Positions 9,937-42,117 of a DNA stretch of 64,000 nucleotides are shown piece after piece (positions within the stretch are counted from its first letter, which is position 1; every line of letters begins with the position of its first letter). Under the pieces are notes generated by a model that ran no database searches, was not told the origin of the DNA, and was given only the letters and a program-made list of their open reading frames with translations. Location: assembly GCA_015060905.1 (NCBI GenBank), contig SUXQ01000006.1, forward strand, positions 62,001-126,000, read 5' to 3'. Position numbers and translations under genes: made by a program. The DNA is from Bacteroidales bacterium. GTDB taxonomy: Bacteria > Bacteroidota > Bacteroidia > Bacteroidales > Bacteroidaceae.

Positions 9937-9982
9937 TGCTCGGTGGTTTTTGAAATTAAACATCCATCGAGTACTAACTTTG

Positions 9983-10376
9983 TGGAGCTGGAGGGAGTCG
10001 AACCCTCGTCCAAACGAGGAAACAATATGCTTTCTACATGCTTAGCATCCGGTTGTTTTTTCGAGCGCAAGCAAGACCGGTGCCACCTACTTGTGCCTTA
10101 TCCTCTGAAATTTCACCGCGCCGACGAGGCTCGTCACGATTAGTCCCGAATTTGCTGCACCACCTTGTCGGATTGCCTCGGAACAACTGCGTCCGGGTGA
10201 TGTCTCGTTCCAACACCTTGTATCGGAATAAAGCTAATCTACTATACTTCGATTAAGCAGCGAGAGCATAAGAATTTTCGCCAGATAATTTTTGTCAGCC
10301 GAGATTATAGTGCCGACCAACGACGCACTGCATGCTTACATACCTTTTCTGCCCGCTGTCAAAACCAAACAGCCCC
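9983..10376 (-). ncRNA. ssrA: Transfer-messenger RNA (tmRNA)
   Basis: On the minus strand the 5' end GGGGCTG (10370-10376) pairs with CAGCTCC (9984-9990) as the acceptor stem; the discriminator A is at 9983 and CCA is not encoded. The T arm (GGGTTCGACTCCC) is intact near the 3' end. The internal reading frame encodes GENSYALAA followed by TAA, the proteolysis tag expected in Bacteroidales. tmRNA with SmpB rescues stalled ribosomes and marks the nascent chain for degradation. The rny gene lies upstream on the same strand. Confidence 0.95.
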
Positions 10377-33971: not shown

Positions 33972-36900
33972 TTATTCAATTGTGCCCATTGTTGCAATCT
34001 GCTCGGCTGTAAAGGCCTTGTTCCAGAAGTAAATACCTGCAATATCAATATCAGCAACCTCACCATCATTGTCACAGAAGAGGTAAGCACCACTCTTGTC
34101 CATTACCCATCTGTCACTGTTGGTGCTTGTTGATGTATTTACCAATTTACCATTTATATACACCGAAGGATAACCAGCCTTTACAACGATAGCAATTTTG
34201 CACCATTCATTAGTGGGAACGCTACCGGCGTAGCCGAATCCGGACACGCCTAACCCAACCTCACCGGTTGATTTTATAAAGATTCCGGCATCCCCATCGT
34301 TTTTCAAGTTCGTTTGAAGCAGTCCGCGCCACGTGTGAGAAGGCACTCTAACATCAAACACAACAGTGTAGTTGCCGAGATTCTCAGACTCGTTAAGCTC
34401 CATTTTAAAACATGTGGAACTTTTCAAGGTGATTCCACCTTCTATTACATTGACAGTAGCACTTTCGGGAGAAGCATACGCAGTGGGGGCACTGTTATTT
34501 GCGCCAAATTTGTAGGGAACGAGCTTTGCACTACCCTCGCTGCTTGTATAAAGGTCGGTGGCATTATCGAACAACCATTTGCCGGAGCATTTGGGAAGGG
34601 TACCTCCGCTGAATTCTTGTTTAACGTTGATTGTTACAAATACAACGTCGTCGCCATCTTTTTCTTTGATGGATATTGTACCCTCGCGGGTGCCTGCTGT
34701 TTCAAGGTCGTCGGCCTTGAATTTGTAGGTTGTCGAGCCTGTGGCGGGTGTTCCTTCGACGAGTTTAATCCATTCGGGAAGCACAAACTCAGGAATTACA
34801 GAAGAATTTAAGTCGATGGTAAATTCGTTCTTATTTTCGAGAAGTTCTATGCTCTTGGTCTCAGAATAGATGTATTTGTAATCAATCTCGCCCAATGCTG
34901 CTACTTGCATTGTGCTTAAAGGCTCGTCCCAATAGCGTATTTCGGCAACCTCGAAATTCATACGTTCACCATTTTCATCTCCAAACAGATAGCACCCTTT
35001 GGGGTCGAGGCACCATGCGCCGTTATAATCATTCTTTCCGGGGGTTACAAGCTCGCCATCAAGATAAGCATTGGGTATTCCGTTTTTAACTGTTAAGATT
35101 ATTCTGTGCCAACGTCCTGCGTACACATGACCTCCATAGCCCCAGTTTCCATTTGCATATACACCTACCTCTGCTTTTTCGTTTATGAAGACCATTGCAT
35201 CAGTGGCGTTGTCGAGGTCGGGTTGCAACAGGGCATTAAAATCGTTGTTCTTCTCCTCGCGCAGGTCGTACATAATGGTGTAGTTCTTTATTTTCTCATC
35301 AGAAGCTGCAGCAAATTGTACGTTAAGCAAGATGTCTTTGGGCAGCAATATAGCTTTATTATCGGATGCGGGGCCGGCTGTTTGCTCTATTTTAGAGCCG
35401 AGAATATCGACCATTGTTACCTCTTTACCATTCATGCGTCCGGCCTGCATTGTAAAGTTTGCATCACCACTGTTTGCAAGTACATTTTCTGCATTTTCAA
35501 ATGTCCACACTCCTTTTGCAGTAGGAATCTCGCCATTGCTATTCTTTTGTACCAATGGGATTGTAACTGGTGTAATGCCGCTACCTTCGGGAGCCGAAAT
35601 TACAAGTTCGCCTGTGCGCTTGAGAACATCTTCGGGCATTGCATCCACTGCAAACACGTATGTGAAGCTACCCATAGAGGGAACGGGGCGTAACAGATGT
35701 ACCCATTCGGGGCATGCAAACGAAGGTTCAACTGTTGATGTTACGGTTAATTTGAACTCTTTTTCATCGAGGAGATTAACTTCTTTTTGCGCAACTGTCA
35801 TCTTTTCCTCGTTTGTTATAAATCCAAGAGTTACCACCTGTGCATCGTTCAATGCTTCGTCCCACAATGCAATTTCGGCAACATCAATATCATCAACCTC
35901 GCCATCTTCGTCGCAGAAAAGGTATGCGCCGGCAGATTGAATTTCCCAACGTACATCGCTAAATGTTGCTTGGGTTACTTTTTCGCCATCAACATAAATT
36001 GCGGGACTGCCATTTGATACGCTTACAACAATACGATGCCATGTATCTGTTGCGCATTGACCGCCATAACCCATTGTCTTATAATTCAATCCCACATTAC
36101 CGGATTTGTTTATAAATATATCTGCATCGTTGTTGTTATTGACGCTTGTTTGCAGAAGCGCATGGTAATTGCTGAAGCTTGATACGCGAACGTCATACAT
36201 AATGGTGTATGAAGATAATTTACCTGAGGGCTCTAATTTGAACATTGAGCCTTTGGACAGATGCAACGCTCTGTTTGTTGCTGTGGGACCATCAACATAC
36301 TGCATATTCGACTCGGAGAGCTTCTCGTTCATTGTAATATATCCGTTGCTTGCCACAACACCGGGGGTTATTTGTATAGGGCCTTCGCTGTTGGAAATTA
36401 TGTCGTTGGGGCTGTCAAATTTCCACAGGCCTATACGTTGAGGAATTATAACATCACCCACATTGGGTGTAAACGTGGAACTTACAATTTTTTCGGAAGC
36501 ATTTTCGTAAGAATCGTATGCAACAACCGCTGCCGTATATTCTGCACCAATTTCGAGACCGCCGAATGTTACTGTCAATGAGTCGGGCATTTCGCTGTTC
36601 TTGTAGAATTCCGAGAATATCCAACGGTTTTTCACTGCGTAGCCTTTGCTGTTTATAATCTGTACTTTGTAGCGGAAAACAACATCGTTGTCGCTTGCCT
36701 GCGGGAAGGTTACAGACACGCCCGAACCTGTTGTAACTATCTTAACAGCAGCCTCGCTTGCAAATTCGGGTGCGGGGAGGCCGTCGCGCAGCTTTTTGCC
36801 GTAAATATTGTCGTATGTATCGCGTATGTCGGCGTATGCAAACTGTGAGCCGTCGAAAGGAGCCTTCAGCAACCAACGGTTGTCGGGCTGAATCTCTTCG

Positions 36901-38123
36901 TTGAGTTTGGTATCGTAACGACGTACCTCTACATCACCGGCAGGCTGTACATCTACTAACAAGCCTTCGGTAATATTCTCATAACCGTTGGGATGAATAC
37001 CTGCATCCACGCTGGGGCCGTGTATCTCGCTATATGTAGTAGAAGCGGTATTGATAACAGTATAGTAATTTTGTTTGTCGCTATTGGGGTTTACGCCCTG
37101 ATGGATAGAGCGGGGGTCGCCTAAGGGGAAGTGGCTGTGACCACAGAATACTACTGCCTGAGGATATTTGTTGAGTATTGGATTGAGTACTCGCATACCC
37201 CATGTGGGCCATGTGTCGCCGTCGCCTTCGCCCGGCCATGTACAGTAACAAGTATTTTTGGGAGGAACGTGGGTAAAGACAAATATAGGCTTTCCGGGAC
37301 ACTCTTTTGCTGCGCGTGCCAACCAGTTTTCAAGTGTGTCACGTACCTCTTTCGGGTAAGCTCCCTCGCCGTTAGAGAGGGATGCGTCGTCGTTGTTCGA
37401 GCCATTTCTATTGCTTATACAGATAAATGGATAACCTTTAATTACAATATATTGGTCGAGGGGGTACTGTTCTCCATCGTTGAAGGCTTTCAATCCATTC
37501 TTATAGGTGGAATTTGCCGCATAATTATCGTGGTTACCCATCATGAAAATAGTCCTATCGACAGGATTGGTAAAATTACCTTTGTTGCTGAACACTTGTA
37601 CAAGCTGCCTGTATTGGTTGGCATCGCCCGTATTAGTAAGGTCGCCTACTACGAAAATAGCATCGAGTTTTTTATGCGATGATATATTTTTAAGCGCACG
37701 AGGAACTTTTACCATAGGTCCCTCGCCCATGGTGTTGCCGAAGTGTACGTCGGAAATTACGGCAAAGGTAGGGGGTGCATATTGTGTCACTTCTATAATC
37801 TGTACATGACCGTCCTTGCCTTTTATTGTTATAAGGGCGGTGCGGTCCTCGTTAGCCTCGCTGGCCTTAACGGAGATTTTCACAGACGCGCTCTCTTTTT
37901 CCACTGTGCACCAATCGGCATCACTTTCTACCTGAAAATTGATGTTTGAACTTACTGCCACAGTTTGCTCGCCACCCGCAAGGTCGAACTGCAAACTTTT
38001 TTCGGCTACGTTAAGATAGGTTGCTCCTTGCTTTGCAACGGAGGTTACAACATAATTCTGAGCGGTGGCAAACTGCAATGCACACGCCAGAATAAGAGTA
38101 TATAATATGTGTAATTTTTTCAT
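33972..38123 (-). CDS. Secreted metallophosphoesterase with BACON and repeated LamG-like modules
   Basis: A 1383-residue exported protein with a signal peptide (ending QFATAQ). A BACON-like domain (about 38-115) precedes a calcineurin-type phosphoesterase (about 118-400) with all metal motifs visible: ISDVHFG, VVGDLT, MMGNHDN, FTHVPP and CGHSHF. A fibronectin-III-like stretch follows, then three LamG-like concanavalin modules (each ending like GAYLFCDEDGEVDDIDVAEI). BACON-like segments lie between them (for example PSFACPEWVHLLRPVPSMGS). BACON and LamG modules usually bind glycans or mucin, so this is probably a surface enzyme targeted to carbohydrate. Its substrate is unknown. A small lectin-like gene lies 11 bases upstream in the same operon. 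Confidence 0.85.
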   Translation of the reverse strand: MKKLHILYTLILACALQFATAQNYVVTSVAKQGATYLNVAEKSLQFDLAGGEQTVAVSSNINFQVESDADWCTVEKESASVKISVKASEANEDRTALITIKGKDGHVQIIEVTQYAPPTFAVISDVHFGNTMGEGPMVKVPRALKNISSHKKLDAIFVVGDLTNTGDANQYRQLVQVFSNKGNFTNPVDRTIFMMGNHDNYAANSTYKNGLKAFNDGEQYPLDQYIVIKGYPFICISNRNGSNNDDASLSNGEGAYPKEVRDTLENWLARAAKECPGKPIFVFTHVPPKNTCYCTWPGEGDGDTWPTWGMRVLNPILNKYPQAVVFCGHSHFPLGDPRSIHQGVNPNSDKQNYYTVINTASTTYSEIHGPSVDAGIHPNGYENITEGLLVDVQPAGDVEVRRYDTKLNEEIQPDNRWLLKAPFDGSQFAYADIRDTYDNIYGKKLRDGLPAPEFASEAAVKIVTTGSGVSVTFPQASDNDVVFRYKVQIINSKGYAVKNRWIFSEFYKNSEMPDSLTVTFGGLEIGAEYTAAVVAYDSYENASEKIVSSTFTPNVGDVIIPQRIGLWKFDSPNDIISNSEGPIQITPGVVASNGYITMNEKLSESNMQYVDGPTATNRALHLSKGSMFKLEPSGKLSSYTIMYDVRVSSFSNYHALLQTSVNNNNDADIFINKSGNVGLNYKTMGYGGQCATDTWHRIVVSVSNGSPAIYVDGEKVTQATFSDVRWEIQSAGAYLFCDEDGEVDDIDVAEIALWDEALNDAQVVTLGFITNEEKMTVAQKEVNLLDEKEFKLTVTSTVEPSFACPEWVHLLRPVPSMGSFTYVFAVDAMPEDVLKRTGELVISAPEGSGITPVTIPLVQKNSNGEIPTAKGVWTFENAENVLANSGDANFTMQAGRMNGKEVTMVDILGSKIEQTAGPASDNKAILLPKDILLNVQFAAASDEKIKNYTIMYDLREEKNNDFNALLQPDLDNATDAMVFINEKAEVGVYANGNWGYGGHVYAGRWHRIILTVKNGIPNAYLDGELVTPGKNDYNGAWCLDPKGCYLFGDENGERMNFEVAEIRYWDEPLSTMQVAALGEIDYKYIYSETKSIELLENKNEFTIDLNSSVIPEFVLPEWIKLVEGTPATGSTTYKFKADDLETAGTREGTISIKEKDGDDVVFVTINVKQEFSGGTLPKCSGKWLFDNATDLYTSSEGSAKLVPYKFGANNSAPTAYASPESATVNVIEGGITLKSSTCFKMELNESENLGNYTVVFDVRVPSHTWRGLLQTNLKNDGDAGIFIKSTGEVGLGVSGFGYAGSVPTNEWCKIAIVVKAGYPSVYINGKLVNTSTSTNSDRWVMDKSGAYLFCDNDGEVADIDIAGIYFWNKAFTAEQIATMGTIE

Positions 38124-38848: not shown

Positions 38849-39087
38849 AATTACTTTTATTTTATTTATTATAGATTTTTTTACTTTGTTTATATGGCTT
38901 TTGAGAAATTACACTCTTTTCTGCAAAGAAAAGATTTTTATGCAATAAAAACAAATGAATATTGAAGAATAACAAAAAATGTTTTTTTATGGTGGCAGAC
39001 AAGTTATTGTTTTTATGCTTGCGACGATAGTGTTAATTCTGCAACCTACCGGGGGCAATGTTGCATTACTTTTGCTACAAAAAAAGT

Positions 39088-42000
39088 ATGCAAAAGATTA
39101 ATATTCCCTTTTTAGGACTCACGACAAACAGCGAGGCACGAGGCATAAAAGATGGCGAGTGCAGCATAATGCACAACCTTACAGCCGACGGTGGCGGCAC
39201 AAAAGTAATTACTCCGCCCACAAAAGGCGTTGCAGTATCGGCCTACAAATACAAAGAGTATTTTCACGAGAAGGCTGAACAGTGGCTCTTTATCAAGCAG
39301 AGCAATGTGTACGACGAAAATGGTGTACGTGTAAACACCCTCAATGGAGAAGCTGACGGAACGGTAGAAGAGCTCTCTTTTATGGGTAACATTGTAATAA
39401 TGTACTGTCCCGACGGGGTGCGTTACGCAATTTACGACAGCGATTATCGTTATCTGGGAAAATTACCCACTCTGCCAAAAATGAATATCAACATAAAGCC
39501 GTTGCACATAACCACCCTCAGCGATTCTAAATATTACACCGAAGAGGCCGACCTTTCCGAAACAGACGAGGGCCTGCGATGGATAAATGCCTCAAAAGGA
39601 TATTTCGACGAGTGTCTGAGCGCACTTTACAACAAAGGAGCATTTATCGACCGTACACTCTTTCGCATGGCGGCCCGTCTTTTCGATGGCAGCTATATTT
39701 GCTATTCTCCCGTATATTATGTCGAGGATACTGATACAATGATCGAGAATATAGGCTACTATTGGTTGGGTGCAAGCTACAGCATCGGACGCGATAATAA
39801 AAATTTCTTCTCGCGCAAACTCAGTACCACAAGCTCGCACAGCTCACAATTTTTCACTTCGGTGCGCGGCTTTATTCCTACATTTACGCTAAAAGATTAC
39901 AACCTTAAAAATTGGCGCGATATTATTGTTGCGATAGAATTGTTTGCGACCCCTTCTATAATGGGGCACGAAAGCCGTAACGACTCGATGGCTACAAAGA
40001 GTGTGTATCTTGATTCAGGCAGTGCAATGGGGCAGGCAAGCGCGAATATTACGACAATGGGCGGTTACGACCGATACGTCTGGAAAGGAGCAAAAAAGAT
40101 ACGCGAAGAGGTTGCCGACGCGTCGCTCTTCTATAAAATAGCAGAATTTGACCTTGAGGGCAACGAAGTGTGGCGACTCGACAACACCTCACCCTCGCAG
40201 CTTGCTGTTCAGACACGATTGCCGCTTAACGAGCAGCCACACGAATTAAATTCGGCGGCTTTTAAATATATATACAACAGCAAGATGCATCTTGCCGGGG
40301 TAAATGAAATTTTTGCCGACGCGTACAAGAATTACGCTATTGCAGCCCGCAGCTCCGAGGCGGTCATTCAAATAACATCGGTGGTGACCATCAGCACCGA
40401 GCAGGGCGAGCGTCAAGTAGTTACAACCTCCAAGGGGCCTTCCCTGCACAAACGTGACGATAAGTATATGTTGCCCCCTCTGTTGCATTATGCCGATGCG
40501 AGGGCAAAGAATCTGCGAATATATGTAGCTTATTCCGGTGCTTTAAATTACAGGCCTGCCGAGTACAAGGATTTTCCGCTGACGGCGCACAAGGCTCTTA
40601 ATATAGCCTATTATCTGAATGGTGCCAATTATGGCAATGAACATAATGTAGAGGTTACAAACAGCTCCTCAATTTACACGGTGGAGGTAGATGATTCTAA
40701 CAAAGAAAATGCTTTTGTTGCTGCTGTAAAAAAAGCAATCCCCGACCGTAGCGACTATTCGGGTACATATATATTTACAAACACTAGTTTTTTTTATTGG
40801 AATCTAAAGGTAACCTTTACGGATAATTCTGTTGCCGAGAAAGAAAATGTGACTCTTTATGGCTTTGGTCTCAGAGCTTTAACAACGGGAGTATCAGACG
40901 TCGGGGCGGGTGACACTGTTACCGTCAAGCTGGAGTATGGCACAGGAATGCTCGCCGGCCTTAAGCCCATAGAGGTTGGTGGCGAGGGGTGGAATACATT
41001 GACAACTAATGATGCTGATTTTACTTACGATTCGAGCAACAAGATTACAGGCTTCAGCCTTAAAAATGTCAAAGAGAATAGAAATTATACGCGAAGCAAT
41101 GTGTTGCGGGTATCCAATGTGGATAATCCCTTCTTTTTCCCCGCGAAAAACACCTATTCTTTCGACGCTGATATTGTGGCTCTGTGCAGTAACACCGTTG
41201 CAGTGTCGCAAGGACAATTCGGACAGCACCCTCTTTATGTTTTTACCAACGAGGGAGTGTGGCTGATGAGTGTCGATGCCTCGGGCGCGGGAAGCTATCT
41301 TGCTCAGATACCCTGTTCGCGCGAAATTTGTAACAATGCAGCCGGCGTTACCGTTACCACACGCGGGGTTGTGTTTCCAACCACTAAAGGGCTGATGCTT
41401 ATAAACGGTAGCGAGGTTGTGAATATTTCCGAAGTACTTTCGGGGCTGCACACACCCGAACTTGTGCGCGACGGTGACATTATCGGCAGTATCTGCAACA
41501 TTGTAGGAAGGGGGAGCGTACAAGGCGCAACAGCTTTTCTCGACTATCTGCCCGAGGCTTTTACAGCCTTCGACTATAATGCGAACCTTCTATATGTGTG
41601 TAACCCCGCTTACGACTATGTTTATGTTTATAATAATGCGTCGGGAGTGTGGAGCACCGCCGACGGCCGTTACTCTGTAAAGGTGGAATACTCCGACAAA
41701 CTTATTCTGGGGTGCGAGTATCGTGGCGACAGTGGCTACGAGTATGTGCGCTACACTTTCGACAAGCAGAATAGCAGTGTCGTAGGGGTGCCTGTGGTTG
41801 TTGTTACGCGCGGTTGCAGTTTCTCGACGATGAGTTTCAAGCGCGTGTCGCGTGCGGCTCTGCGTGCAACCTTTCATGCAGCAAAGATGGGATTCTACAC
41901 TCTTGGCAGCGTCGATGGCGTTAATTGGACGCTTGTCGGCGGACGCGACTTTTCAAAAGAATCGGCAGCATTGCATCGTGACGTTGTAACATCCTTTGCC

Positions 42001-42117
42001 CGCTCGCGAGCCTGCCGTTACTTCTCTTTTGCCTTTGTGGGCGAGCTTAGAAACGATGCACGTCTCGCGCTTATAGAGGTTGCCGCACAGACTGATTTTG
42101 AACGTAGAATAAGATAA
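39088..42117 (+). CDS. Orphan phage-type virion protein (stabilization/tail-like)
   Basis: A 1009-residue protein from the ATG at 39088 (MQKINIPFLGLTTNSEARGI); ten upstream codons are open but overlap a possible -7 box. It has no signal peptide or membrane helix. The N-terminus (ECSIMHNLTADGGGTKVITP) and the C-terminal half (NPFFFPAKNTYSFDADIVAL, VSQGQFGQHPLYVFTNEGVW, IPCSREICNNAAGVTVTTRG) resemble, from memory, large tail or 'stabilization' proteins of podovirus-like and crAss-like phages of Bacteroidota. No capsid, terminase, portal, integrase or lysis gene is nearby; neighbours are secreted chromosomal proteins. The frame is intact, so it is either a retained prophage remnant or a domesticated gene. 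Other possibilities remain open. Confidence 0.55.
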   Translation: MQKINIPFLGLTTNSEARGIKDGECSIMHNLTADGGGTKVITPPTKGVAVSAYKYKEYFHEKAEQWLFIKQSNVYDENGVRVNTLNGEADGTVEELSFMGNIVIMYCPDGVRYAIYDSDYRYLGKLPTLPKMNINIKPLHITTLSDSKYYTEEADLSETDEGLRWINASKGYFDECLSALYNKGAFIDRTLFRMAARLFDGSYICYSPVYYVEDTDTMIENIGYYWLGASYSIGRDNKNFFSRKLSTTSSHSSQFFTSVRGFIPTFTLKDYNLKNWRDIIVAIELFATPSIMGHESRNDSMATKSVYLDSGSAMGQASANITTMGGYDRYVWKGAKKIREEVADASLFYKIAEFDLEGNEVWRLDNTSPSQLAVQTRLPLNEQPHELNSAAFKYIYNSKMHLAGVNEIFADAYKNYAIAARSSEAVIQITSVVTISTEQGERQVVTTSKGPSLHKRDDKYMLPPLLHYADARAKNLRIYVAYSGALNYRPAEYKDFPLTAHKALNIAYYLNGANYGNEHNVEVTNSSSIYTVEVDDSNKENAFVAAVKKAIPDRSDYSGTYIFTNTSFFYWNLKVTFTDNSVAEKENVTLYGFGLRALTTGVSDVGAGDTVTVKLEYGTGMLAGLKPIEVGGEGWNTLTTNDADFTYDSSNKITGFSLKNVKENRNYTRSNVLRVSNVDNPFFFPAKNTYSFDADIVALCSNTVAVSQGQFGQHPLYVFTNEGVWLMSVDASGAGSYLAQIPCSREICNNAAGVTVTTRGVVFPTTKGLMLINGSEVVNISEVLSGLHTPELVRDGDIIGSICNIVGRGSVQGATAFLDYLPEAFTAFDYNANLLYVCNPAYDYVYVYNNASGVWSTADGRYSVKVEYSDKLILGCEYRGDSGYEYVRYTFDKQNSSVVGVPVVVVTRGCSFSTMSFKRVSRAALRATFHAAKMGFYTLGSVDGVNWTLVGGRDFSKESAALHRDVVTSFARSRACRYFSFAFVGELRNDARLALIEVAAQTDFERRIR

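Follow-up and report, generated by a model that had tools for sequence, protein, structure and literature searches.

In the window (the whole 64,000-nucleotide stretch of DNA analysed, part of contig C25 of genome G000), an uninterrupted frame of 1009 codons with a promoter-like element upstream is predicted to encode a tail nozzle protein and lies among chromosomal genes, namely those for a 237-aa protein, an alpha-L-rhamnosidase and a 1383-aa multidomain protein (Table 1). The mechanically called open reading frame of the nozzle gene begins 10 codons upstream, at 39058; we consider the ATG at 39088 the better start because of the promoter-like box listed in Table 1. The protein belongs to no Pfam family at E values up to 0.01 and matches two PHROG families, 32516, of unknown function (1.6e-37), and 511, an internal virion protein (2.2e-4). 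Three Bacteroides phage records match it in tblastn (24.6-36.6% identity), in one case across 88% of its length, and the homologues in these records are annotated as hypothetical. Codon usage of the window gene is chromosome-like (z -0.83 against 69 reference genes); it deviates in three other genes of the set described below, a lysozyme (-3.9), one small paralogue (-3.0) and an adaptor-like gene (-2.4).

By structure comparison, the predicted fold of the window protein is that of a podovirus tail nozzle, including the beta-propeller and ring-joining part of the class formed by P22 gp10, T7 gp12 and the crAss001 muzzle. Identity to nozzle structures is 8-14% in the structural alignments, and a PDB profile search with the nozzle alignment gave a single, irrelevant match (0.12). 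The window gene is, by its predicted fold, a podovirus-like tail nozzle gene. The initial annotation, made from the letters alone, had described an intact phage-type gene between ordinary chromosomal neighbours, had likened its product to the large tail or stabilization proteins of podovirus-like phages, and had proposed structure prediction against phage tail proteins as a check. The open frame with its PHROG and phage matches, the domain content of the flanking genes and the nozzle fold agree with it on all of these points.

Table 1. Features of the window and of the related loci in the same genome (positions without a contig prefix are those of the window)
Feature	Position	Strand	Description
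Tail nozzle (muzzle) gene	39088..42117	+	1009 aa; open frame, PHROG 32516, predicted nozzle fold; relatives in 41/44 genus genomes
Upstream promoter element TGTTAATTCTGCAACC	39031..39046	+	Exact copy, ends 41 bases before the nozzle gene; one of the sites used to define the motif, hence not independent evidence for it
TAnnTTTG-like box TACTTTTG	39067..39074	+	Probable -7 element
1383-aa neighbour	33972-38123	opposite to nozzle	BACON, metallophosphoesterase and laminin-G-like domains; no connection with the nozzle found
tmRNA gene	9982-10376	-	
Locus I, head/packaging	C18:64147-81017		Terminase large subunit, two small paralogues, small protein, scaffold-like, capsid-like, adaptor-like, small genes
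Insertion in locus I	C18:68461-76038 (L093:4461-12038)		Separates the terminase side from the scaffold-like gene; by eye like type III restriction-modification
S24-domain (S24/CI-like) regulator	C18:81904		After the head genes of locus I
Locus II, lysis	C18:103542-104849		Holin-like, phage lysozyme, spanin-like lipoprotein; ~22 kb beyond locus I
Locus III, portal	C29:8707-16187		Portal, 1494-aa ejection-type protein, 208-aa gene
82-aa gene facing the portal operon	L189:16262-16510 (C29)		Own exact motif
Locus IV	C25, window 39088..42117	+	Window nozzle

One nozzle copy was detected in G000, and the genome holds particle genes at no fewer than four places, two of them on C18 and one each on C29 and C25. 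The earlier statement that no other phage gene lies around the nozzle is thus correct within the window and misleading for the genome, where particle genes are intact at other loci. Profile searches found one intact capsid-like gene and one intact terminase, both on C18. The terminase of locus I matches PHROG 2 (6.1e-20), and all 32 terminase frames examined contain the Walker-type string ARQWGGST and the string VDVGG, which we take to mark terminase functions. Genes for PheS, MurB and PanB lie near this locus. The lysozyme of locus II has a strong Pfam match (1.2e-39), the portal of locus III matches P22_portal (3.1e-39) and PHROG 156 (1.2e-60), and the 1494-aa protein is of the type that precedes the portal in related phages. 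The 82-aa gene opposite the portal operon is conserved in 18 of the 19 genomes from which portal loci were retrieved, and a search gave no clear family for it. We use the name capsid-like on the basis of gene order, phage homologues and a weak Pfam match, which 10 of 21 members show at E values up to 0.01 (best 4e-5, the first member falling under the curated cut-off); the predicted structure has a pLDDT of 39, and a PDB sequence search with the capsid-like profile returned nothing. In the loci retrieved we found no tail fibre and no gene that is with certainty a small terminase, for which the 82-aa gene is a purely positional candidate. The flanking genes scanned, which cover part of the neighbourhood, include no phage replication or integration gene.

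The particle genes are present in nearly the whole genus of the window, which belongs to the Bacteroidaceae and is recorded in ruminant gut metagenomes. Among its 44 genomes the nozzle is absent in G006, G021 and G026, the capsid-like gene was found in 43 (in G016 only via a divergent copy, its cassette contig starting within the adaptor-like gene), and the portal in 41, a few of these portals being fragmentary or interrupted by one stop within the matched stretch; as a yardstick of completeness, rpoB was recovered in 32 of the 44 from the same incomplete assemblies. The main nozzle and capsid-like copies are free of stops. The nozzle search gave no match among the genomes searched from other genera of the family and weaker matches in four genomes from other families of the order, and three genomes from other genera have a weaker capsid-like match (301 family genomes searched). 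The 42 loci matched by capsid-like patterns in named genome records, which we take to be of this genus, all come from Bacteroidaceae or Bacteroidales metagenome assemblies, 38 of them from ruminant gut samples.

Retrieval of 40 nozzle-family loci yielded 34 of a cassette type (from 34 genomes), four displaced orthologues and two extra copies. In all but one of the cassette-type loci, adaptor-like or capsid-like genes stand upstream of the nozzle on the same stretch; in the remaining one (G008) the contig begins at the nozzle. Cassette nozzles are 28-34% identical to that of the window in a sample of 16 aligned. The usual cassette opens with a group of genes on the opposite strand, namely the terminase large subunit, a pair of small paralogues and one small protein; it continues with scaffold-like, capsid-like, small, adaptor-like, small, holin-like and spanin-like genes and the nozzle, after which a third paralogue and an S24/CI-like regulator often follow. 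Spanin and ATP synthase identities were assigned by eye, and small genes were missed in some loci because gene calling used a simple greedy script. ATP synthase genes lie inside the listed stretch of 14 of the 34 cassette loci; their operon separates the cassette from the portal module in G020 and G004, and the portal module comes after the cassette without this operon in between in G030 and G019. The four displaced orthologues, in the sister species G041, G012, G002 and G028, are 50-69% identical to the window nozzle and, as in the window, stand apart from the head genes. Of the extra copies, one lies on a short contig (G033, C3) and the other (G009, C6; L070 / L147) belongs to a second, phage-like set that has a portal of its own and a disrupted nozzle frame; the cassette is present in G009 as well.

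The scattered operons of G000 have a promoter motif in common. The element found upstream of the window nozzle also precedes the scaffold gene, with a partial copy before the terminase operon, and in each case the TAnnTTTG-like box, which we take to resemble the Bacteroides -7 consensus, lies about 20 bases downstream. Because the motif was derived from these three upstream sites, they cannot serve to test it. Searching the whole of G000 (2.5 Mb) with the pattern TGTTAWTTCTGCAACC at up to two mismatches gave 17 sites, eight of them exact; the reversed pattern gave three. Half of the exact sites are at particle operons (the window nozzle, the scaffold and both sides of the portal operon start); the others lie upstream of BspA-like repeat proteins (two), ahead of a gene whose product weakly matches GIY-YIG (one) and at a position without a clear gene (one). 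Weaker versions precede the terminase and holin operons. BspA-like leucine-rich-repeat or related secreted proteins of G000 (L251, L252, L260 and L262, on C14, C15, C18 and C2) have the element 270-390 bases upstream of their called starts with 0-2 mismatches.

Across the genus, 25 of 36 scaffold upstream regions (G000 included) contain the motif with at most three mismatches, compared with a mean of 5.9 and a minimum of 3 in shuffles, and four have no site (6 mismatches); control upstream regions of the capsid-like (38), rpoB (26) and adaptor-like (39) genes never fall under four. Portal-operon promoters were taken from 20 loci, two without the leader gene, and the pairing of portal with scaffold sites omitted two genomes that have no scaffold site. 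In nine of the 16 genomes with both, the portal site is within one mismatch of the scaffold site of the same genome, as with TTATAATTCTGCAACC, found twice in G038, and TGTCAATACAGCAACC, found twice in G029. Over the 16 genomes, mismatches between portal and own scaffold sites total 28 versus 51.7 when genomes are shuffled (p about 5e-5), a result favoured by the picking of sites by similarity. Displaced nozzles differ from the scaffold motif of their own genome by 0 (G000), 1 (G012), 3 (G041) and 5 mismatches (G002 and G028). A related element is present at four mismatches in the phage contigs L154 and L156 (5-6 at the other phage loci tested), and the motif may therefore derive from a phage promoter. 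The best reading of these upstream regions is that one promoter motif joins the nozzle, head and portal operons in a regulon. The S24 regulator was weighed as a common activator: its gene is preceded by a palindrome, TAGCCAAATTTGGCTA (L093 near 17905; C18:81904), which G000 and G041 share and G002 has in nearly the same form. Visual inspection of the particle promoters did not reveal this palindrome, which may be the regulator's own operator.

Codon-based trees of seven genes were compared to assess inheritance. The capsid-like tree shares 11 of 23 splits with rpoB, the nozzle tree 10 of 23 and the portal tree 7 of 18; shuffled controls for six rpoB comparisons have means of 0.24-0.38 and maxima of 2-3 in 200 shuffles, a control that takes no account of relatedness. 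Between the capsid-like and portal trees, whose genes are unlinked, 15 of 22 splits agree. The particle genes thus appear partly congruent with the host tree, with at best about half of the rpoB splits recovered, incomplete agreement being expected because synonymous sites are saturated. One conflict concerns G010, whose rpoB places it with G029 and whose particle genes place it with G014 or G031; since these agree even at the unlinked portal, the rpoB contig of G010 may be the odd one. The clade of the window, comprising four to six species depending on the gene, has a support of 1.0 in all seven trees, including rpoB and the unlinked portal, which suggests a single departure of the nozzle from the cassette, probably in the ancestor of this clade. 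A split supported at 0.994 divides the capsid-like proteins of 38 genomes from those of the G009 prophage and six phage contigs.

Estimates of dN/dS (Nei-Gojobori, nine chosen pairs, with dS measurable for the nozzle in six) are 0.079-0.162 for the nozzle, 0.012-0.054 for the capsid-like gene and 0.017-0.046 for rpoB; in all-pair summaries the adaptor-like (up to 0.42) and scaffold-like (up to 0.35) genes are looser. These substitution ratios indicate that the particle genes are under purifying selection. The initial annotation had read the 3-kb open frame as a sign either of selection or of very recent arrival, and had suggested a comparison of related genomes. That comparison found a set conserved in the genus with dN/dS well below 1, which upholds selection and dismisses recent arrival, the gene being old and co-inherited. 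Its suggestion of a domesticated virion part used as a particle gains from the same conservation and selection; its other suggestion, the last gene of a decayed prophage, fails, the other particle genes being intact elsewhere in the genome. We reject both ideas, recent arrival and a decayed prophage, on the strength of presence across the genus, selection and the agreement of trees.

Homologous genes are also found in true phages. A scan of viral contigs with the capsid-like alignment found six in IMG/VR (L153-L158), with portal, terminase, scaffold-like, capsid-like and adaptor-like genes in the order of the cassette and capsid-like proteins 62-65% identical; L153 also has a nozzle homologue beside its portal. 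They differ from the genus set in being phage contigs whose capsid-like proteins fall outside the genus clade. A scan with the window protein alone gave 16 pattern-matching stretches, none of them confirmed. The Bacteroides phages BF1-TP2, BS-TP4 and BKO1-TP3 carry nozzle homologues together with the small paralogue family, within phage genomes. The SU10-like and crAss-like podoviruses resemble the set in the nozzle (muzzle) fold and in weak SU10 capsid and adaptor Pfam matches within the genus cassette; they differ from it in being infectious, with all genes in one genome (PMC10172136), and show the low structural-alignment identity to the window protein given above.

Taken together, we consider it probable that the nozzle belongs to a domesticated, vertically inherited, multi-locus podovirus-like particle, for which a gene transfer agent (GTA) is the likeliest identity. 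The genomic data support domestication and co-regulation well; the GTA function is a best guess. Points that weigh against this reading are the tail fibre and certain small terminase that were looked for and not found, the weak basis of the capsid-like name, the partial tree agreement with its G010 conflict, the motif sites at genes outside the particle, the scaffold promoters and displaced nozzles that fit the motif poorly, and the metagenomic origin of all 42 records. A review defines GTAs by six features (PMC9662315), among them a preference for packaging random host DNA, a head that cannot hold the full set of its own genes, and delivery of the packaged DNA to other cells. The remaining three are found here. 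These are descent of the proteins from tailed phages (portal, terminase and lysozyme profiles, the nozzle fold, and phage homologues in the same gene order), residence in the host at several loci flanked by chromosomal genes (C25, C18 at two places, C29) and, partially, mostly vertical inheritance (the splits shared by rpoB and the capsid-like gene, against the G010 conflict). In the proposed mechanism, a trans-acting factor would switch on the scattered operons together in some cells, and scaffold, capsid and portal would form a procapsid that the terminase would fill, by analogy with GTAs, with chromosomal DNA. The adaptor and the window nozzle would close the vertex, the lysis operon would burst the cell and free the particles, and these, again by analogy, would eject their DNA through the nozzle into relatives. 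Joint packaging of all particle genes would be unlikely because they are scattered.

Conservation, selection and co-regulation would fit any useful particle, and a domesticated particle may serve another use, such as killing rivals without delivery of useful DNA, protein delivery, or lysis that releases products. The Bacillus element PBSX, which packages DNA and does not inject it (PMC12946183), offers a precedent, and no tail fibre turned up in the loci retrieved. However, terminase, portal, adaptor and nozzle have all been kept, which favours packaging and ejection since a tail-only killer would not need them, and we regard such another use as rather unlikely, if still a serious competitor.

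A quite different account is an ordinary temperate phage, or a prophage family that was acquired repeatedly, is slowly decaying and was scattered by rearrangement. The existence of phages with homologous genes speaks for it, as do the second phage-like copy with its own portal in G009 and the second nozzle copy in G033. It is nevertheless improbable in view of the presence of the genes in 41-43 of 44 genomes, the stop-free main copies of the nozzle and capsid-like genes, dN/dS well below 1, the single genus clade apart from phages, the recurrence of the same window clade in rpoB and particle genes, and the lack of replication or integration genes in the part of the neighbourhood scanned; the set is not one contiguous unit in G000, and neither patchy presence nor decay is seen. 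Mixing of phage contigs into metagenome assemblies, or faulty binning, could be suspected given that all 42 records are metagenome assemblies and several genus contigs are short. We judge such an artefact highly improbable, as the nozzle and head genes of G000 are internal to contigs of 143 kb (C25) and 174 kb (C18) beside ordinary chromosomal genes, and the same arrangements recur in assemblies from different animals.

The preferred reading, a GTA-like particle, has a close counterpart by description in FpGTA of Faecalibacterium, a podovirus-like agent in two operons (head/packaging and tail/lysis) that is near-ubiquitous in its gut genus and for which particles, about 9 kb of packaged DNA and proteomics are reported (PMC12946183). 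Both are podovirus-type, split sets of a gut genus, and both include terminase, portal, scaffold, capsid and lysis genes; FpGTA has a Bacillota host, two operons and observed particles, whereas the present set occupies four or more places, shares a promoter motif and is known through its gene content. RcGTA is a long-tailed form. Its phage-derived genes are fully host-resident, lie at five loci in R. capsulatus and are mostly vertically inherited (PMC9662315). The present set resembles RcGTA-like agents of the Alphaproteobacteria in host residence, several loci and mostly vertical inheritance; unlike it, RcGTA has another phage ancestor and another host phylum, and its transfer was shown by experiment (PMC9662315). 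Among the matches listed in a literature search on GTAs and domesticated prophages, whose scope left aside preprints and most subscription papers, there was no Bacteroidota case.

A more specific scenario, which we put forward tentatively and think less likely to be right than wrong, is a Bacteroidota GTA that arose by a single domestication of a SU10/crAss-like podovirus in the ancestor of the genus and then broke up into a regulon of scattered operons that a co-evolving promoter keeps together; this regulon would also drive BspA-like surface proteins that may replace the tail fibre or prepare recipients. Bacteroidota are a dominant phylum of mammalian guts and engage in much gene exchange; if our interpretation is correct, a genus-wide, co-regulated, host-inherited particle set would be a dedicated route for such exchange, and a further case of a podovirus-type GTA beside FpGTA. 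Ordinary prophage finders would probably miss the set because its genes are scattered and mostly unnamed, and the shared promoter would provide a handle for finding its remaining parts and the factor that controls it.
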